This document shows, one piece after another, positions 2,153 through 35,302 of a stretch of DNA of 35,304 bases. How positions within the stretch are numbered: position 1 is the first letter of the stretch; each line of letters starts with the position of its first letter. The position numbers were made by a program, and so were the translations under genes. Location: positions 1 to 35,304 of the IMG/VR virus record IMGVR_UViG_3300032304_001022. The stretch is one strand, 5' to 3'. This DNA is from a virus. Under the pieces are notes generated by a model. It was not told where the DNA came from and did no database searches. It saw only the letters and a list, made by a program, of their open reading frames with translations.

Positions 2153-5100
2153 GATAATATAATGTAATAGGATGACCTATAAATCTATGGTTATTATCAT
2201 TCTTTTTTGTTAATTTAACGTATATCCATGGATTTCGAATTCTAGCAAGTTTATCTTGGGAAAGAGAATCTCTCTTAATAGAGTGAGTCCATTGTCTAAA
2301 TCTTCTTTTAATATTATCCCCTGATAGTGATATAGATCCCGTATCTTGATAATCGTTATGTATTTTGACTTCTTCATATGTTTCATCGAATATGTTGTTA
2401 TTTAAACTATCGTAACATTCTGAATACCATTGAATATTATTCCATTCTTTAGTACTTGGATTTTTAGCATTAGATAATAATGTAATAGAGCTATCGTACA
2501 CAGTACCATAGAATTCACAATAATTACCAACATTATGTTGATAGAAATTACATCTAGGAGATAATGAAGGTAATCCTGCTACTGAGAATATTTGTCTACC
2601 AGTAGAATGTAATACAGATGAATTAATATCAAATTCACCTTCAAAACAATTTAATATTTCACTATATGAAATAATCTTACCTGCACCATTATTAAAGCTA
2701 AATAAAACTCTATTATGTCTATTATCATATGTACCATGAATACCAATAGGTATTAATGATGTTTTAGCATCTGTTTCACTTACAAATGGATCATATCTAA
2801 AATAGCTATTTAAACCTTTTAAATCACTTAAAGGTTGTTTAGTATTACTAGATATTCTAAATAGTTTTCTGTTTCTTACATCAAAGAAATATAAATAATC
2901 CTCTGATTGAATAACAGAAGATGTATGTTTAGTTCCATTTTGATTACTTATGTAACCATATACAGAAATAACATCTCCAGTTCCTAATTGTAATTCTATA
3001 CCATCTTGATTTTGAGTAACTACTCTTTCATTAATAGGTACAATACCTACTGCTTTATCTTGGAAGAAATAAACTCTACCTTGATGATTAGCTACTGCAT
3101 TAATTTCACCATATATACCATCTACTTCTATTTGATTGTTTATTTTAAATTTAGTCCAACTATCAATAAGTTCACCATTACGTTTTAATTCACTAACATG
3201 AATTGCATATGGTTGTTGATCGTCAAAATTAACAATAAATGGTTTAGCTACAAATACTTGCTTACTATTATTAACTTGAGTATAAACTTCATTTAAAAAG
3301 TAATTCTCTTGAGCATATTGTAAGTTATTTGCTGTTGATGTACCTCTATTTCTATTAAAGAAACTACCGTGTCTTAAATCAAAATTAGCTGCACATTCTA
3401 CTGGGAAAAATATACCAAATGAATAAGAATCAGAAGCTGAATCCATGTTTTGTATTTTTTCAAATCCAAAATTTAAGACATATGTATCTCCACCATATAC
3501 TTTTAACACAGATGAAGAATTAGATGCTATAAAACATCCAGTTGTTATATATCTATTATTACTTCTAGCTTCATAAGTGTTTCCACCATATTGATTAGCT
3601 AAGTTTCTTTTATATGTAAAATAAGGTATAATATCATCTGTTGTATTCATATCAGCTAATACATCTCCAAATGTAGTATATGATGCTGCTGCTAAATCTA
3701 ATCCTCCAATAAAAGATAAACCACATTTTCTATCTGTTGTTCCTTTATTGAAATATATTGTATAACCACCAGTATCTGTTGTAAAATCAGCTAAGTTAAA
3801 ACTACCATTGTAGTTAACTTTAATTAATTCATTGAGTTCTAAGTTAATAAGAACATCGTTATTATCTAACTCATAAGCTCTATAATAAGATAAATCAGCA
3901 GCAGGGTTATTCCCAGAATTAAATGCACTTGTATCTAAATTAAAGTGTTTATTAAATTCTAAATAATCACCTTCTTTAAATCTATGTTTAGTTACATCTT
4001 GGAATAAAAAATTAGGAGAATGCATTTTTACAAATCTCCATGGTGCACCTGTAGATGTATATGTTGCTGCATTTAATATATGCGAACCATCATATAAATC
4101 TGTTCCACCATCTGTTACAATAGTAGAAACAATACCACCACCAAGATTTGTTCTGTTATTAACATCTCTTTCTACTCTAACTATCTCATAACCAGATATT
4201 AATTCTTTAACATCATCAGGTATAGTTATATCAAACTCTATACCTATTTGATTACCATATAATGTAGTACCACCAAAAGCTGTTAAATTAATATCATCTA
4301 TTGATGGAAATTTAATATCACCTATCCATTTAGTAAATGAAGGTTGACCTTTTTTATTATAAAATACAATACCAAATCTATAAATTTCATCTCTTGAATA
4401 ACCTTGATATAAGAAATTTACATATGGTGATTTATAATTAGGTACTTGGTCTTCAATGTTATAGTTGATTCCGTTACCAAAATTTTCTAATAATGTTTGT
4501 CTACTAGGGCCATCGGCAAATGGAGCATCTGGAAAATTAGATAAATAATTATTATCTATAATAATTTGTTTAGTTATAAATTTATATTTAACATATAAAC
4601 CTTCTCCACCTAATGTTGTTCCATCTGATTGATATTTATATTCATCATAATCAACATCATTTTTATTATTAAATGGGTTAATTGCATCGTGATCATAATC
4701 TAATAGAAAATCAGTATCTATAGTAGTAGTTTCACCTATTTTATTTTTAACAATAGATGTACCATCTGATTTAAATCTAAATGCTCTAGCATCAAAATCT
4801 TTATCATTTATTTCAAAATTAAATGATTTAGTATTAACTGCTATTAATCTATTATCTTTTTGTGTAAAATCTTTACAATGTGTAAATTGAGCAGATAACA
4901 TATTGAACTCTTGCTCAGATAAATCTATTTGTTCTTCATCATTTGTGAACGTTACATTTAATTCTCTTGAAGAAGGTATTAATTCTTCTTTAAATATCTT
5001 ATAAACTGGTAGATTATTAAATTCATATAAGACAGCTATATGTCTTATTCTATCATAATTATCATCTATATTAGATATATTATATGTAACACTCTTAGAT

Positions 5101-21429: not shown

Positions 21430-23898
21430 TTATTTTGAACTAGATTTTTTAATCTTTTGAACAGAAATCTGTTTTTCTTTGAGTTCTTTATCTTGTTCTA
21501 GTTTTTTATAACTTAATTCCTTATCGTCTTTTAACTTATTTCTCTTTAGTGCAAGTTCTTCTTCTTGTTTTTGTTTTTTAAGTTCAAATTCTTTCAACTT
21601 TAAATTTACTTCATCCATATTAACTTCATCTGAAGATAATTGTTTTTCAAGTAATTTAGTTGCTCTATCTTCTTCTGCTTGTATTCTTATAGCTAAAATG
21701 TCATGCATTTGTTCATCTTCTCTCTTATCTATTTCATACTGTCTTGCTTCATTTTGAGCTTGAATATTAGCATCAGTTATTTCTTTTTCATGTTGACGAT
21801 TAGCCTCAGCCTCTTTTTCAACTTGTAATTGTTTCTTTTCTTCAGCAGTTTCAATGATTTTAGTCATATCGTATATACTATTAGAATGTAACAATTGAAT
21901 TAATTCTTTAAATCCAATCATTTGGTTCTGCATAGCAGCGTGAGCTAATTGTTTAACAGATTGTTCAAATTCAATATACTTATTTGATGTAGTTAAGAAT
22001 ATATCAAAATCACTTGAATTTAATTCAGATACATCTACTTTAGATGTTTTAACTGATAAATCATCGAGTATATAGTTCAAACGTAAATCTGTTTCGTTTC
22101 TTAAACAATATTTAGCTGTTTCTAAAAGTGTAGATAAAACTTTAAGTTTTACATATTCATGTAGACCAAACCATGATTCTGTAATATGTGAAGATTGTGT
22201 TACAGATCTTTCTACGTTACCTACTGATTCTCTAGTTTCAATTTGCCCTTGTCTTTGTTCAGTTACACCTGATATATTACCAACTTGTCTTTCTATATAT
22301 TGTAACATAGAAATATTAGATTGGATATAATCACCTACAGATTTGGTTTCCATAACTCTACCACCAAATGTATTATTTAAACTTCCTGCAATTTGTCCTC
22401 GAGCAGGGCCTTTTTTAATTTCACTAGTTGGATCTACGAATGCGTAACCTAATACTTCTGCATATTGTAACCATTTTTCTGGTTCCCATCCATCAGGTAT
22501 AACGGATGTATTTATTTCAAATATAGGGAATTTAAATCTAGCAAAACCTAATTCTGCACGATACATAAATATGTTGAACAGATATTGATATGGTTTCATT
22601 TGATCGTATAGAGATCTAGCTCTATTATCATTTACATTGTAAGCTGCACCAACGTAACCACTTTTACACAATGATGGATTATTCATATTTCTAAATTGTA
22701 CTGGTTTAGGTTGTATTCTAACAAATATATTATCTGCTATTTTAATACCTTCCCAATATTCATTAATCCATAACCATGTTACTTTTTCTCCAACACTTTG
22801 ATCTACTGGGTAACGTTCATCAACAAATTTAACTTGTTCTTGACCAAATTCATCTAAACTAGTTAATTTACCAACTTTACGTTTTGATTTCCATGTTAAT
22901 CTCTGAACAAGAATGTTGCCATTAGAGTCAAAAGGATGAAACATAGTTGTGTGTATATTATCAAATACAGGTATATCTATTGGTGTTCCACTGAAAAAAT
23001 CTGCTTTCAATGTAGGATGAAAGTTTCTATAATTAACTATTTCATTTTTAGGATTACCAGATGATCCTCCACCAAATGTTTTTTTTATGTTATCTTCAAG
23101 TTCTTTAATTTCAGTATCTTTTAATTCTTCGTGAAATTCATCAATTATTTGACCAAATGAATAATAACCTACTTCTAATATTAAATCTGCTTCATCTATA
23201 AAATTGCTTACACCATTACCATATACAAATATATTTAATGGGTTACATTTTACAACTTTAGGTTGACCAGATACAATATCTATTCTGTAATATTCTTCAC
23301 CTGCAATAAGAGCATCCTCAAATCCTCTATTAAATTTATATTTCAAATCTTGTTCTTGATAATAATAATTTAATAGTGAAGATGCCATTTTTGACAATGA
23401 ATCTTGATAATCATATTTGTAATAGTTTTGAATAGATGATAACTTTGCTTTTATTGTAGCTTCATTTGTGTTACCTTTTTCCATTTCTTCTTTAATAGTA
23501 GATTCAAGCATTCCTTGAATATCTTCCATTAATTTACTTTCTTTCTTAGATATAACACCTGGATTTGTTGAAACAACTCTCCATTCAAATCTACGCTTTT
23601 GTTCTTCTCCTAATAGTAATTTAATTTTAGGGTTACACAATGGGTAATTTTGCATAGTTGCAGGAAATGTATTCATATCAAACCCTAAAGGTGAGCATAC
23701 ACTTTCTACATCTTTTAAATCAATTACATCATTGTATAGATCATAATTCTTCTTTTTATTATAATATGTTTGTCTAATTCTTGAATCAGACGTTAACGTT
23801 AATTGTATTCCACCTTCTACACATTCTTTACCCCATTTAGAAGTTTTTTGACTAAAAGGTAATTTTTGTCCTGGAAATATTTTCGATACTTGTTCCAT
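21430..23898 (-). CDS. Portal protein
   Basis: An 822-residue protein forming the dodecameric DNA channel at one capsid vertex. It follows TerL, and GNVERSVTQSSHITE (around residue 555), then helices with WFGLHEYVKLK, is typical of crAss-like portals. The last 150 residues (about 670-822) form a long Lys/Glu/Gln-rich coiled coil, probably the barrel or a disordered tail inside the head. Length matches crAss-like portals, longer than most other podoviral ones. The start at 23898 lies 47 bases inside the TerL gene, so translation of the two is likely coupled. It is the last gene before the promoter at 21354-21385. Confidence 0.9.
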   Translation of the reverse strand: MEQVSKIFPGQKLPFSQKTSKWGKECVEGGIQLTLTSDSRIRQTYYNKKKNYDLYNDVIDLKDVESVCSPLGFDMNTFPATMQNYPLCNPKIKLLLGEEQKRRFEWRVVSTNPGVISKKESKLMEDIQGMLESTIKEEMEKGNTNEATIKAKLSSIQNYYKYDYQDSLSKMASSLLNYYYQEQDLKYKFNRGFEDALIAGEEYYRIDIVSGQPKVVKCNPLNIFVYGNGVSNFIDEADLILEVGYYSFGQIIDEFHEELKDTEIKELEDNIKKTFGGGSSGNPKNEIVNYRNFHPTLKADFFSGTPIDIPVFDNIHTTMFHPFDSNGNILVQRLTWKSKRKVGKLTSLDEFGQEQVKFVDERYPVDQSVGEKVTWLWINEYWEGIKIADNIFVRIQPKPVQFRNMNNPSLCKSGYVGAAYNVNDNRARSLYDQMKPYQYLFNIFMYRAELGFARFKFPIFEINTSVIPDGWEPEKWLQYAEVLGYAFVDPTSEIKKGPARGQIAGSLNNTFGGRVMETKSVGDYIQSNISMLQYIERQVGNISGVTEQRQGQIETRESVGNVERSVTQSSHITESWFGLHEYVKLKVLSTLLETAKYCLRNETDLRLNYILDDLSVKTSKVDVSELNSSDFDIFLTTSNKYIEFEQSVKQLAHAAMQNQMIGFKELIQLLHSNSIYDMTKIIETAEEKKQLQVEKEAEANRQHEKEITDANIQAQNEARQYEIDKREDEQMHDILAIRIQAEEDRATKLLEKQLSSDEVNMDEVNLKLKEFELKKQKQEEELALKRNKLKDDKELSYKKLEQDKELKEKQISVQKIKKSSSK

Positions 23899-26856: not shown

Positions 26857-28497
<1,641 letters not shown>

Positions 28498-29956: not shown

Positions 29957-29976
29957 ACTAGATTTATTTAACTTTG

Positions 29977-30008
29977 CAAATATAATAAAACTTCTTATAC
30001 GTTGTCAA
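29977..30008 (-). promoter_or_regulatory. Leftward promoter, TTGACA-N18-TATATTTG
   Basis: On the minus strand a consensus TTGACA (30008-30003) is followed after 18 bases by TATATTTG (29984-29977), matching both sigma70-like -35 and Bacteroidota -7 boxes. It is the best promoter match in the window and would drive the operon from 29956 through chaperonins, TerL and portal. Confidence 0.75.
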
Positions 30009-30026
30009 GTATTTTTTGATAAAAAA

Positions 30027-30045
30027 TATAACAGCTTTTGTTATA
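30027..30045. repeat. 7-bp inverted repeat between divergent promoters (operator candidate)
   Basis: TATAACA (30027-30033) and TGTTATA (30039-30045) are perfect reverse complements around GCTTT. The repeat sits between the two divergent -35 boxes, where a repressor or activator could act on both. Read leftward it is followed by a T-run, so a weak terminator is an alternative. Confidence 0.4.
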
Positions 30046-30063
30046 AAATAATTGCAAAAAAAC

Positions 30064-30094
30064 TTGACTTTTAAAAATCACCCTATTATATTTT
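30064..30094 (+). promoter_or_regulatory. Rightward promoter, TTGACT-N17-TATATTTT
   Basis: TTGACT (30064-30069) is followed after 17 bases by TATATTTT (30087-30094). The -35 is identical to that of the late promoters; the -7 box has T for the final G. It would start a leader RNA running into the terminator at 30311-30336, about 230 bases on. Confidence 0.5.
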
Positions 30095-30149
30095 ATTAAT
30101 TATAAGATATTTATTATATAATATATATTATATATACTATTATAGTATT

Positions 30150-30191
30150 TTTCTTTTATTTCTTTTGGTTACTTTTCTTTTTTTCTTTTGG
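30150..30191 (+). repeat. Polypyrimidine direct repeat
   Basis: Two near-identical C/T stretches ending in TTCTTTTGG (30150-30168 and 30173-30191) are separated by four bases. They lie in the presumed leader downstream of the rightward promoter. Such tracts can be protein-binding or strand-separation sites; the role here is unknown. Confidence 0.4.
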
Positions 30192-30310
30192 ATTGTTTAA
30201 CGCATTTTAAAGCCTTAATTTTTAATTCACAATTTATAGGTTGATGAATTATCACCGAACAGGAGATCTTTTAAAAATACCCCCTTAAAATCGTTTTTAA
30301 TATAATATAG

Positions 30311-30336
30311 CCTACTTTTAATCGAGTAGGTTTTTT
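30311..30336 (+). terminator. Rightward intrinsic terminator / attenuator
   Basis: CCTACT (30311-30316) and AGTAGG (30325-30330) form a perfect 6-bp stem with an 8-base loop, followed by six T (30331-30336). It faces the rightward genes although no gene lies upstream in that direction, so it either ends a short RNA of about 230 bases from the promoter at 30064 or attenuates readthrough into the 186-residue gene. Confidence 0.75.
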
Positions 30337-30388
30337 GTTGGTATTATTTTTTTTATATTTTTTTAGAATTTTTTTTGAGAGTACGTTA

Positions 30389-30446
30389 GTTTTAAGGTGC
30401 GTAGGATACTACCCCCACTCAAAACTGGCTGCGGGGAGTCCCGCGG
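30389..30446 (+). promoter_or_regulatory. Structured 5' leader of the 186-residue gene
   Basis: Two hairpins precede the ATG at 30483. The first pairs GTTTT (30389-30393) with AAAAC (30421-30425) and carries a GTAG-GATA-CTAC tip (30401-30412). The second is a GC-rich 7-bp stem with a GAGT loop (30429-30446), unusual in this AT-rich sequence. The CCCCC run beside the first could pair with GGGG of the second, so two exclusive folds are possible. A regulatory leader is inferred. Confidence 0.5.
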
Positions 30447-30482
30447 CGTTGAATAATTGTTTAATTTGTAAAAATAAGTATT

Positions 30483-31149: not shown

Positions 31150-31392
31150 ATGCATAAAATTCAAATAGAAAAATGCACCAATTATAAAATTGATTGGAAT
31201 AAAAATCAATATGTGCAACATATAGATAAACCAGATCTTATTGTTAATTATCTAGGAGAACATGATGATATGTGGTTTAAAGGTTATGTACATCCTTGTG
31301 ATTTATATCCTTTAGGAAAATGTTCTAAATTTTATAAACCTGAATTTAAACGATTCACTGGTAAAGCAACATTAATCATTGAAAATACATAA
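31150..31392 (+). CDS. Small protein, paralog of the gene at 32862-33116
   Basis: An 80-residue protein with DW then VQ in the first third and the core GEHDDMWFKGYVHPCDLYPLG (about 36-56, kept here as GEH-D-F-GY-PC-YP-G). The 84-residue product at 32862-33116 shares this core in the same order and spacing. The single Cys in PC and the His in GEH are conserved in both, possible metal or redox residues. No outside family is recognised. It starts the gene group upstream of the first RNA-like stretch. Confidence 0.6.
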   Translation: MHKIQIEKCTNYKIDWNKNQYVQHIDKPDLIVNYLGEHDDMWFKGYVHPCDLYPLGKCSKFYKPEFKRFTGKATLIIENT

Positions 31393-31396
31393 CACT

Positions 31397-31684
31397 ATGA
31401 TTATCAACATAGAAGAAAAAAAAGAAAAAACATACAAACCAGGAGATTGGTTCTTGTATGATAATAAACAGCTATATGTTTTAACTGAAACAGGTAACAA
31501 AAGTGTAACATTAATAGGAGTTACTAAAAATCACGCTCATCAAAGTTTTGCATCAAAAGAAGTAAATGACATAAATAATATCATTAAAAGTGAATTAGAT
31601 TGTTTATCCCTTTATACTGATAAATCAAAATGGGAACATGTAGATGTAACAATTAATGTTGCAAGAAGCCATTCAATATTATAA
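31397..31684 (+). CDS. Unrecognised 95-residue protein
   Basis: I place the start at the ATG at 31397 (MIINIEEKKEKTYKPGDWFL), five bases after the previous stop, rather than at an in-frame TTG at 31379 that would overlap it. The N-terminal YKPGDWFLYDNKQLYVLTET looks like a small beta domain. The rest is mixed. No family is recognised. The stop is directly followed by the first RNA-like stretch. Confidence 0.58.
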   Translation: MIINIEEKKEKTYKPGDWFLYDNKQLYVLTETGNKSVTLIGVTKNHAHQSFASKEVNDINNIIKSELDCLSLYTDKSKWEHVDVTINVARSHSIL

Positions 31685-31694
31685 AAAACTCAAA

Positions 31695-31702
31695 TAACTT
31701 TG
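31695..31702 (+). promoter_or_regulatory. Possible -7 box (TAACTTTG) in front of RNA-like stretch A
   Basis: TAACTTTG matches TAnnTTTG and lies where stretch A begins, so an RNA could start near 31709, just before its first helix at 31716. No TTGAC-type -35 is present at the expected distance, so chance is quite possible. Confidence 0.3.
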
Positions 31703-31985
31703 CAAGTTGTTGAGCACACCTAGTTCTTTGAATAATGTGAAGCGCATGAGATAATATCAATAGTGGTAAGCAACAAAGTGTTCAAAGTTTAAGGTGTAAA
31801 ACACAATGGACTCCTACTGGATCGATGGGTGATACCAAAGATTTACAGGAAAAAAGAGGGTTAGTTGAACATAATTTAATCATACGATGAGTATGAATTA
31901 TGGAATACGAATCTACTAAGGTGGGATCTTAGTACCCAATGAAGGTAATCAGACCTTTGATGTCAAGTAAAACCATCCTTGATTA
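31703..31985 (+). ncRNA. Structured RNA A (novel-looking), about 280 bases
   Basis: The 364 bases between genes (31685-32048) have no credible reading frame; stops of all three types are dense. Helices visible: ACACCT/AGGTGT (31716-31721 with 31792-31797) continuing, across a 4x4 loop, as CTTTGAA/TTCAAAG (31726-31732 with 31781-31787). Further: TGGATC/GAT-a-CCA (31818-31837); CATAATT/AATTATG stacked on CATAC/GTATG (31870-31902, 12 bp with a TAAT bulge); TACTAAG/CTTAGTA (31914-31934); AAGGT/ACCTT (31942-31957); TCAAG/CTTGA (31963-31982). Bases 31986-32048 are A-rich and unstructured. Class unknown; the strand follows the flanking genes. Confidence 0.6.
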
Positions 31986-32048
31986 GCTATAAACAAAACA
32001 ATAACAATAACTAAAAGCCTCTGATATACAGGTAGTATATTAAACAAA

Positions 32049-32234
32049 ATGGAAAGAATTGTAAAAGTTTTTTTGGTAAATAAGTTAAGTCTTGATACTT
32101 GTTTACAAGATCCTACTGAAGAACAGTTTTTAGATTATGTTGAAAAACTAGAAAGCTGGGATTGGATTTTTGTATCAACAGCAACAGGAGAAGTATTTCA
32201 TTTACGTGACTATATTTTAAATATGGTAGAATAA
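32049..32234 (+). CDS. Small 61-residue protein between RNA-like stretches
   Basis: An acidic, probably alpha/beta protein (MERIVKVFLVNKLSLDTCLQ, then an EEQFLDYVEKLESWDWIF segment). The composition is that of a real soluble protein, and the A-rich bases before the ATG resemble the other starts here. It is enclosed by stretches A and B. No family is recognised. Confidence 0.55.
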   Translation: MERIVKVFLVNKLSLDTCLQDPTEEQFLDYVEKLESWDWIFVSTATGEVFHLRDYILNMVE

Positions 32235-32238
32235 TAAT

Positions 32239-32824
32239 CTTTTAGTTACCCAATACCCAGTAATGGTGAGGGTGACTTAATTAATTAAAAGTGCAATTAA
32301 TGGTAGGCATACTATTAATGGAATTGACAGAAATATAGGGTTCTACAGAAAGACCTATATTGTATAACAAAGCTATGGTGGCTAAATAGAACTACAAATG
32401 TGTTTTATTTATTCTCGTGAGAGATTTTGTTAGTAGAATAGAAAATAATACAAATGGATTTTGTGTAATTCAACATGGACGTAGATAAGCTAAGCTGAAG
32501 CTACAATAATAGGTGTGATAATAATGCCTGATCCTAAATATATTTGAGACTAAAAAGACTCTCAGTTACAATGTAATAGTAATATTAATATTATGAGTAA
32601 ACTTACCAAGTATATATTATGTGTTGTCTTATCTAAGGTAGTGATACCAAAAACTATTCTTACAGGTAATCCATAATCCTGTATTCCAAGCACTTTTAAT
32701 TAATTATAATGTAATGCATCATAACTCACTTCCCAAGGGTGAGCAGTTGTAATAGAATAGTAAGTCCATTAATTTGGTGATACACCAGTAGTTAAGAAAC
32801 TATGTAACTATTACAACTAAGTGC
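32239..32824 (+). ncRNA. Structured RNA B (novel-looking), up to about 590 bases
   Basis: No protein gene fits in 32235-32861. Helices: CTTTTA/TAAAAG (32239-32244, 32286-32291) enclosing GTTACCC/GGGTGAC (32245-32251, 32270-32276); a 10-bp hairpin with GGCA loop (32296-32319); ATATAGG/CCTATAT (32333-32360); GGTA-GTGA-TACC (32637-32648); TACAGG/CCTGTA (32661-32683). The 3' domain is most convincing: GCACTT/AAGTGC (32690-32695, 32819-32824) encloses CTCACTT/GGGTGAG (32725-32743) and an 11-bp helix (32745-32755 with 32808-32818) whose interior has TGGTG-ATA-CACCA (32775-32787). The 3' strands of the two long helices are adjacent, as in a coaxial stack. It could be two RNAs; 32830-32861 is A-rich leader. 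Confidence 0.6.
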
Positions 32825-32861
32825 AGAGGGTATTAAATAACAATAATCAAAACTAATAATA

Positions 32862-33116
32862 ATGAGAAAAGTAGAAATTGTAAAAGTAACTAAAATTAAA
32901 CTTCCTGATTGGAGTAAAAAAAATTGGGTGCAAAATTTTGAAGATCGAACAGCAATTATTGCAACAACTGGTGAACATAAAGATAATGGATTTTCTGGTT
33001 ATTGTTTACCTTGTGAAGCTTATCCAAAAGGTGAATTTTTTAATAATTGGCCTAAAAAAAAATTCATATTATTAGAAGATGATATTCCATTTGTAATTAG
33101 TAACAAAGAAAAATAA
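32862..33116 (+). CDS. Small protein, paralog of the gene at 31150-31392
   Basis: An 84-residue protein sharing with its paralog the order DW - VQ - GEH - D - F - GY - PC - YP - G. Its core is GEHKDNGFSGYCLPCEAYPKG in the same spacing, with an extra Cys in GYC. The C-terminus is Lys-rich. Each paralog lies upstream of an RNA-like stretch (A via the 95-residue gene, C directly), suggesting a duplicated module. No family or function is recognised. Confidence 0.6.
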   Translation: MRKVEIVKVTKIKLPDWSKKNWVQNFEDRTAIIATTGEHKDNGFSGYCLPCEAYPKGEFFNNWPKKKFILLEDDIPFVISNKEK

Positions 33117-33372
33117 AATAACATTGTAAATTACAAAGAAATATAGACTCGATAAGGGAGATACATAAGAAACCATGTTGTGATTTAGTAGAAATGTTTG
33201 AAATATAACTATGCTAAAAGAGACTGAACTTATCTAATTTACAATAAAAATATAGGTTTGATATTTACCTATGTGTTATGGTAGAAGATTTGTATAATGT
33301 GAGAAATCCTATATACAACTTAAAGAAGTTACCTAATTCACATAAAAAGTTGTAGTAATAGTGTAAACATGG

Positions 33373-33407
33373 ATAAGTGTTTAAGTTTAAAAGACTCCAT
33401 CTACTAC
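33373..33407 (+). repeat. Imperfect direct repeat inside RNA C, copy 1
   Basis: This stretch and 33670-33706 share AAGyGTTTAAGTTTrAA, then AAGACT and, a few bases on, TACTAC, with two extra bases in copy 2. A weaker relative occurs in RNA A at about 31776-31818 (GTGTTCAAAGTTTAA, later GACTCCTACT). The copies fall in different domains, so they may be protein-binding or long-range pairing elements. Confidence 0.45.
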
Positions 33408-33669
33408 TAGAAATTGTGTTGTTTCTACTTGAGAAATAGAAATATCTTAAACCATACGTTGCAACCGTAGCAAGACCAAATAAAGGTGAGAATCTTGTGC
33501 AAATGGGTAACGTAGCCGAAGCTGTTGAAAAACAGGTTACAGAGTCTGTAGGCGAGACCTTTACAACACAAATATCATTCTCAAATATAATGTTTATAGA
33601 GGCCCGTGTCAAAGCTCGGTGTATATGGTGTAGCAGAAGCACACTATAAGCATTATATAATGTTTTGTA

Positions 33670-33706
33670 AGAAGCGTTTAAGTTTGAAACAAGACTATAA
33701 TACTAC
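33670..33706 (+). repeat. Imperfect direct repeat inside RNA C, copy 2
   Basis: This copy lies in the loop closed by the 12-bp helix (33659-33670 with 33733-33744). It contains GTTT-AAGTTTG-AAAC, itself able to form a 4-bp hairpin, followed by AAGACTATAATACTAC, whose TATAATAC pairs with 33720-33727. See copy 1 at 33373-33407. Confidence 0.45.
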
Positions 33707-33826
33707 CACAGACTGAAATGTATTATATGAGATTACAAAACATTAAAATATTCTATACCAATAATATACCTTAATATTAATCAAGTATTTGGTAGAAGAT
33801 ATGAATTATTAATAATTTAATTAGAA

Positions 33827-33949
33827 ATGACAAAAGATAAAATAAAATATTTTATTAATTTAAATGGTAATAAGATTTATTTTTCTACTGTTTCACTATC
33901 TGAGGTTAATAATCTTAAACCAAAATTTATAAAACCACTTTACAAATGA
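33827..33949 (+). CDS. Small 40-residue protein after RNA C
   Basis: Reading from ATG at 33827 gives MTKDKIKYFINLNGNKIYFS and continues to a TGA at 33947-33949 that overlaps the next ATG (ATGA). Basic, beta-type, with a TVSLSEVNNLKPKFIKPLYK end. The stop/start overlap supports a real gene. No family is recognised. Confidence 0.5.
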   Translation: MTKDKIKYFINLNGNKIYFSTVSLSEVNNLKPKFIKPLYK

Positions 33950-34706: not shown

Positions 34707-34877
34707 ATGAAAAAAGAAACATCATTTAAAATAATGGTTGCTTTTGTTTTATTACTTATACTTAATATTATATGGTTAGGTGCTACTGAATTAGGTTATT
34801 TAATATCAAAAATATTACTTTCTTTTGCTGTAGTTTTCTTTTTTATAAATGTATTTACTAAAGAAAATCGAATATGA
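34707..34877 (+). CDS. Small two-helix membrane protein, 56 residues
   Basis: The frame from ATG 34707 starts MKKETSFKIMVAFVLLLILN and runs to a TGA that overlaps the next ATG as ATGA (34874-34877). Two hydrophobic helices (about 8-26 and 30-49) are separated by a short polar turn. It lies between a lipoprotein and a phosphatase gene. Possible superinfection-exclusion or membrane-remodelling role; no motif. Confidence 0.55.
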   Translation: MKKETSFKIMVAFVLLLILNIIWLGATELGYLISKILLSFAVVFFFINVFTKENRI

Positions 34878-35302
34878 AAGTTTCACTTGATTTTGATGGT
34901 ACATTAAGTAGACATACTGTACAAGAATATGCTAAAGAATTGTTATTAAAAAATGTAGATGTATGGGTATGTACTAGTCGTGCTAAAAATCCTAAAATTA
35001 AAAAGGGTGGAATAATTTTAAATCCTAATGAAGATTTATATAAAGTTACTGACTTTTTAGGAATACATAGAGACAAAATAATATTTACTGAATCAAAACT
35101 AAAAGTAGATACATGGGAGTTTCAAAAAGAATCTTTTATATTTCATTTAGATGATGATTCTGTAGAAATTAAAGAAATGATTAATGAATCTATGGATTAT
35201 CCTAATTTTATAACAACACCAATATTATTTGATAAGAATTTCAAACAAAAATGTGAATCAATCTTAAAATTATATGAATCCAGAACAAAAAGAAGTAAAT
35301 AA
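34874..35302 (+). CDS. HAD-superfamily hydrolase (small phosphatase)
   Basis: A 142-residue protein with HAD motifs: DFDGT (6-10, nucleophile Asp6 and acid/base Asp8), VCTSR (32-36) for motif II, Lys residues near 63-75 for motif III, and HLDDDSVE (91-98) for motif IV. No cap domain is visible at this length, so it belongs to the minimal HAD phosphatases. Substrate might be a nucleotide or nucleic-acid 5' or 3' phosphate; unknown. The stop overlaps an ATG at 35302-35304, the likely start of the next gene, which runs out of the window. Confidence 0.8.
   Translation: MKVSLDFDGTLSRHTVQEYAKELLLKNVDVWVCTSRAKNPKIKKGGIILNPNEDLYKVTDFLGIHRDKIIFTESKLKVDTWEFQKESFIFHLDDDSVEIKEMINESMDYPNFITTPILFDKNFKQKCESILKLYESRTKRSK

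Follow-up and report, generated by a model that had tools for sequence, protein, structure and literature searches.

Putative RNA modules with conserved scaffolds and variable arms at a syntenic island of crAss-like phages

The stretch of DNA analysed here, which we call the window, is a viral record of 35,304 nt (IMG/VR record IMGVR_UViG_3300032304_001022). Its source is a crAss-like phage according to PHROG matches to the terminase large subunit, portal and major head protein, the crAss-like set that marks membership of Crassvirales, and its terminase has its closest named relative, with 34% identity, in Cellulophaga phage phi14:2 (Steigviridae). The phage also encodes a GroEL-like chaperonin (26857-28494; PHROG 5725), as do phi14:2 and gut phage cr111_1. 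Structural genes occupy the minus strand to about 29956 and small genes the plus strand from 30483, and between the two sets lies a divergent noncoding region of 526 nt (29957-30482), which holds a terminator-like hairpin near 30310-30332 on both strands. The window has no tRNA or tmRNA gene. Towards its end, a 142-aa protein (34874-35302) carries the N-terminal HAD-phosphatase-like motif MKVSLDFDGTLSRHT and is without a significant Pfam or PHROG match.

Stretches A, B and C all lie inside the plus-strand small-gene set, where small ORFs (31397-31684, 32049-32234, 32862-33116 and 33827-33949) alternate with noncoding DNA. The threefold alternation of small gene and noncoding stretch described in a first-pass annotation of the sequence is thus real by ORF coordinates, and no terminator-like site is found between its members on the plus strand, as that annotation had also stated. 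Neither the 61-aa ORF that separates A from B (32049-32234) nor the 84-aa ORF after B (32862-33116) matches a known family; the latter and an 80-aa ORF (31150-31392) are paralogues with 35% identity. A (z -2.7) and B (z -4.7) fold better than their dinucleotide shuffles, none of which was as good, and for C the difference is weak (z -1.6).

The first-pass annotation had further linked the stretches by shared motifs. One of these, GTGATACCAAA followed by TTACAGG, does occur at 31829-31849 and 32641-32666, and nowhere else in the 35.3-kb record. It does not exceed chance: an exact common word of at least 11 nt appears in 63 of 400 shuffled A/B pairs, and the two-part 11+7 motif in 4 of 400, a figure that is near chance given the post hoc choice of the motif. 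The motif common to A and C is likewise a chance match, with a comparable one in 310 of 400 shuffles. Since none of these motifs is found at the matching place in relatives either, we reject them as a unifying feature. What survives of the original proposal is the presence of several RNAs in one crAss-like phage island, but not the unity of A, B and C through GTGATACCAAA/TTACAGG or the A/C motif. The true conserved elements are an M4 scaffold in A, an M1 scaffold in B and an M3-like one in C, plus a perfect 17-bp stem in B.

Relatives were sought through the neighbouring 186-aa protein and the GroEL-like protein, with none found, and 80 related viral loci were gathered by terminase alignment. 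In blast comparisons with these 80 loci, only the 3′ part of B showed conservation at the DNA level among the three stretches, and this led to the discovery of the M1 element. Models were built for M1 (R1), M4 (R2) and M3 (R3); each was trained on a set that includes the window, so that the model scores given below lack the independence of the blast and pattern matches.

The M1 scaffold of B (32711-32835, plus strand) matches crAss-like relatives in blastn with E down to 4e-15, and R1 with E 3.3e-5. It comprises the junction of P1 (32715-32719/32821-32825), P2 (CTCAC/GTGAG, 32725-32729/32739-32743) with the invariant loop TTCCCAAGG, and P3 (32745-32755/32808-32818), followed by the tail AGAGGG. 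The loop CCC (32732-32734) could form a pseudoknot with GGG of the tail (32828-32830). P3 bears a putative payload arm (32756-32807), which recurs at L040:5563-5635 on a plain stem outside M1 (76-nt alignment, 82%). Upstream, a 5′ domain (32278-32706, plus strand) is bounded by a perfect 17-bp stem (32278-32294/32690-32706) closing 395 nt; the longest stem in 150 shuffles was 13 bp. This domain contains the motif at 32641-32666, and no relative of it was found.

In A, the M4 scaffold (31697-31807, plus strand) is matched in relatives by blastn (E 7e-7) and by R2 (69 bits, E 2.6e-14). It shows NNC-AAGWTGTTGA-GNN, CACC..GGTGT and the tail AAAACACA with P3 between, and can be read as P2 (TGC/GCA, 31701-31703/31714-31716), P1 (CACC/GGTG, 31717-31720/31793-31796) and P3 (31726-31732/31781-31787), with a candidate pseudoknot between the P2 loop TGTT (31708-31711) and AACA of the 3′ tail (31800-31803). 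The R2 alignment places a 48-nt insert in P3, the putative payload arm (31733-31780), which was not found elsewhere. The remainder of A (31808-32048, plus strand), which includes the motif at 31829-31849, is annotated as folded RNA and leader of the 61-aa gene; no relative of it was found. Locus L055 weakly matches the 3′ half of A, but in coding sequence, and the match was discarded as chance.

The M3 elements, namely P1 (TTGTGTTG/CAACACAA, 33414-33421/33564-33571), a P2 hairpin with loop CTTGAGAAA (TTTCTA-CTTGAGAAA-TAGAAA, 33422-33442) and the tail TTCTCA, are all present in order on the plus strand of C (33414-33584). The predicted pairing is between the loop TTGAGAA and the tail TTCTCAA (33578-33584), with a long insert between. 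The CTTGAGAAA hairpin together with TTCTCA was not reproduced in any of 20,000 shuffles of C. As R3 scores C only partially (E 0.055), the assignment to M3 is tentative. C also has a 5′ domain (33122-33244, plus strand) with an 11-bp closing stem, ATTGTAAATTA/TAATTTACAAT, as read from the sequence. No relative was found for this domain or for most of C, as was the case for the 3′ part of A and the 5′ domain of B; a match between C and locus L069 was set aside as weak and AT-rich.

M1, M3 and M4 each occur in well over 70 copies in IMG/VR. The M1 element, TAATGCACCA - CTCAC TTCCCAAGG GTGAG - CAGTTGTAAT ... ATTACAACTG - AGTGCAGAGGG, was found in at least 120 stretches with a 20-letter pattern in IMG/VR, and nearly all matches listed have a matching 3′ half. 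A stricter M1 pattern had a single match, on a MAG contig of 4.6 kb, among 84,980 species genomes of bacteria and archaea, and M1 had no match in named phage records. Word counts in M1 loci led to M2 (ACTCTCATCC..GCAGG ... arm ... CAAGGGTTGCAACCTTGTGAGAGT) and to M4, the latter with 90 stretches in IMG/VR and 75 distinct copies with the 5′ half. M3 was first seen in phi14:2, L040 and L044 and then in 113 stretches, with 79 distinct copies having the CTTGAGAAA hairpin.

The folds of M1, M3 and M4 are borne out by covariation. In 35 trimmed M1 cores with arms excised, 99.7% of pairs in P1-P2-P3 are standard and 15 of the 21 pairs have changed on both sides; none of 500 shuffles reached any of five measures, and slid controls dropped to 30-50%. 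Pairs were kept at 96.3% in M4 and 97.8% in M3, with 0 of 500 shuffles reaching the covariation score of either. The M4 pseudoknot changes from TGTT × AACA to CATT × AATG in three human-gut phages, two compensated pairs; CCC/GGG of M1 is invariant as well as complementary, which makes that pseudoknot possible and puts it beyond a covariation test. In M2, the hairpin loop covaries with a 5′ segment, judged by eye rather than by formal count. M1 and M3 share the order P1-P2-P3-P1′-tail, their P2 loop and tail being complementary, and in M4 P2 lies ahead of P1. All three have a stem that closes the structure, a hairpin with a loop able to pair to the 3′ tail, and a hypervariable arm about 10-250 nt long (6-249 nt, median 81, on P3 of M1).

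Rfam 15 gave no hit in the window at the gathering threshold and, up to E 10, none that overlaps the M1, M3-like or M4 cores. The modules of relatives were also unmatched, except that 32 nt adjoining M4 in L118 gave a marginal hit to DUF805b, and the GOLLD and ROOL covariance models matched neither the window nor those modules. In all there are at least four phage-specific RNA families, M1, M2, M3 and M4, that are absent from Rfam. In known genomes, M4 lies in annotation gaps of 0.5-1.5 kb in the human- and pig-gut crAss-like genomes cr6_1, cr109_1, cr128_1 and cr272_1, with a further R2 match in cr10_1, and M3 lies at 3126-3211 of the cultured phage phi14:2, in a stretch from which ORF annotations were removed. 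An R3 hit in crAss001 (21833-21878) falls inside a tail gene and was taken as chance, and an M3 hit in Lak-B1 is weak.

The modules form a syntenic RNA island between small co-directional genes, divergent from the terminase gene and 3-11 kb upstream of it. In all 75 cases with a detectable terminase they are on the opposite strand, 3.3-10.8 kb upstream of the terminase start; the 42 terminase-bearing loci found by RNA pattern alone all agree with this placement, and where PolB is present modules are upstream on the same strand (20/20). M1, M2 and M4 never occur on both strands of one locus; tandem arrangements are frequent, with M2, M1, M4 as the prevailing order. Few sense ORFs of at least 45 aa run over modules (18/142, 6/55 and 6/90). 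Rfam matches in module-bearing loci are to tRNAs, tmRNA, permuted tmRNA, one Hatchet (L189:8591-8727) and one Pistol (L163:13780-13840), these two ribozymes being in loci that also bear M1 and off the M1-M4 cores.

Several further features were seen at these loci. At L301:8755-9020 a permuted tmRNA follows an M3 module of the same strand at a distance of about 0.9 kb. phi14:2 has a tmRNA (L004:4031-4500) with tag GSSVQKLAMVA that is missing from the annotation of the record and, at L004:1310-1850, a D-arm-like GGTAGCTCCTCTGC and a T-arm-like GCGAAGGTTCGAATCCTTCACCA about 480 nt apart, possibly an interrupted or split tRNA. In gut phage cr272_1 (NC_055903.1 6068-7580, locus L402), a 1.5-kb unannotated gap has several GGCAGCCTGAAAAGACAGG-like repeats before M4, and these repeat units are probably a further RNA module family. 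Another module family is likely represented by CCACAAGGTTTCAGGC..CTCTCATCCTGTAAAGCAG..GACTTGTGG, which recurs directly upstream of M2 in L194 (M2 at 2976) and in several other M1 loci.

The 279 arms of M1, M2 and M4 fall into 175 clusters, of which 110 are singletons, and have no common sequence motif beyond the P3 stem. Clear matches between arms on different scaffolds number only about five, among them M1 of L181 and M4 of L124 (105 nt, 88.6%), M1 of L112 and M4 of L210 (63 nt, 90.5%), M2 of L102 and M4 of L268 (62 nt, 88.7%), and M1 of L116 and M4 of L229 (45 nt, 84%). Orientation is always the same and homology stops at the P3 stem; with control stretches taken from these loci, a single marginal hit was obtained. 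Such near-identical arms on different scaffolds indicate that arms, besides being hypervariable, are exchanged between scaffold kinds as cassettes. Compared with shuffles, the folding advantage of the arms is small, with a mean z of about -1.1 in M1 and -0.6 in M4, as would be expected if many arms had a loose structure or were neutral.

The nearest known kind of phage RNA is that of GOLLD and ROOL, which have pseudoknots and lie near tRNA/tmRNA genes (PMC12286853). They resemble M1-M4 as large structured phage noncoding RNAs with pseudoknots, often near tRNA islands, but each is one conserved RNA, about 600-800 nt long or longer, whereas the conserved part of M1-M4 is a core of some 60 nt that comes in four or more unrelated versions, with interchangeable arms and no Rfam match. 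The arrays of phage tRNAs and tmRNA are also RNA genes among tiny genes on one strand, with some loci in common, but neither ARAGORN nor Rfam finds M1-M4 to be tRNA-like. M1-M4 share their small size and pseudoknots with RAGATH-type motifs and with the Hatchet, Pistol and twister-sister ribozymes, and Hatchet and Pistol share loci with M1; core sequences nevertheless differ, with no Rfam hit. In xrRNAs, known from RNA viruses, a hairpin loop pairs with a 3′ tail that lies past the closing stem. M1, M3 and M4 would have this topology, with two pseudoknot pairs that covary in M4, but they show no evident sequence relation to xrRNAs and carry a swappable arm. Open papers, a scope outside which bioRxiv-only preprints and most subscription journals fall, contained no description of modules of the M1-M4 type or of a system laid out in this way, in agreement with the first-pass annotation, and we know of no precedent for several unrelated scaffolds with exchangeable arms.

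We favour, tentatively, the reading that the region belongs to an island of phage RNA cassettes in which scaffolds carry host- or competitor-facing arms. Modules would be co-transcribed with the adjacent replication-side genes, each scaffold would stabilise its RNA and present the arm, and the arm would be the working part, binding host or competitor molecules as a decoy or inhibitor RNA; A, B and C would belong to the island through M4, M1 and, less surely, M3. Were arms to do the work, scaffolds should be conserved while arms diversify and swap as host-interaction genes do, and it is this pairing of a conserved holder with a fast-changing, swapped part that leads us to judge the arms host- or rival-facing, the best inference by analogy with such genes. 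A role in phage RNA-based control or anti-defence, suggested earlier, is possible for these putative RNAs. More speculative is the wider notion of a modular RNA weapon or decoy system in Crassvirales and some other phages, with unrelated pseudoknotted scaffolds, interchangeable arms, cassette exchange at one island and early use against host or rival functions.

The main rival, which we consider rather unlikely, treats the modules as cis-acting mRNA elements, that is, intercistronic or 5′ leader structures that block exonuclease, guide processing or tune translation of the next small gene, with the P3 arm as neutral expansion. M4 and M1 often end 20-45 nt ahead of a start codon (median 43 nt before the next ORF for M4, 30-45 nt for many M1), in B about 30 nt separate the end of M1 from the 84-aa ORF, most modules run in the direction of the genes around them, and a pseudoknot of hairpin loop and 3′ tail resembles viral exonuclease-resistant RNAs. 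Leader structures do not account as readily for tandem modules 1-10 nt or about 110 nt apart with no genes between, or for M2, which is far from starts (median 369 nt), and homologous arms with 84-90% identity on unrelated scaffolds are unexpected of neutral filler. Arm exchange is left without explanation if the modules cut the early transcript between units, as self-cleaving ribozymes or as motifs associated with ribozymes. A small pseudoknotted core with one variable stem is typical of ribozymes, and M1-bearing loci do harbour the Hatchet of L189 and the Pistol of L163, yet the 24 loci with M1 or M4 that were scanned contain no known ribozyme besides these two, 11 M3-bearing loci had none, and no Rfam ribozyme model matches in the window; we regard this reading as improbable.

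That A, B and C assemble as sub-domains of one large ornate RNA is very unlikely. Phage origin, pseudoknots and nearby tRNA and tmRNA genes are as in GOLLD and ROOL (PMC12286853), but neither of these has a match here, and families stand alone in most loci (M3 in 74, M1 in 69 and M4 in 64 of 278) with variable order and spacing: phi14:2 has M3 with no R1 or R2 match, and the gut genomes have M4 with no R1 or R3 match. For the same reason an obligate complex of the three RNAs is unlikely, one RNA complex having been among the options of the first-pass annotation, A, B and C belonging to three different RNA families, each present without the others in most loci. Finally, decayed coding DNA or AT-rich spacer with motifs shared by chance, a reading with which the near-chance motifs of that annotation agree, is scarcely tenable in view of compensated base pairs in three families, conserved synteny and the few sense ORFs over modules. 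It is refuted for the scaffolds, but may hold for the 3′ portion of A, the 5′ domain of B and the greater part of C.

Crassvirales are among the commonest human gut viruses, and much of the module region is unannotated in their genomes. Covarying RNA families with arms shared between scaffolds would constitute a new kind of phage RNA gene, and M1-M4 would account for annotation 'gaps', with the cultured phage phi14:2 and human-gut genomes at hand as test objects. If arms do act on the host, they would be a new source of RNA-based inhibitors. Altogether, the pattern points towards a modular RNA toolkit, so far unrecognised, in common viruses of the gut and of aquatic habitats.
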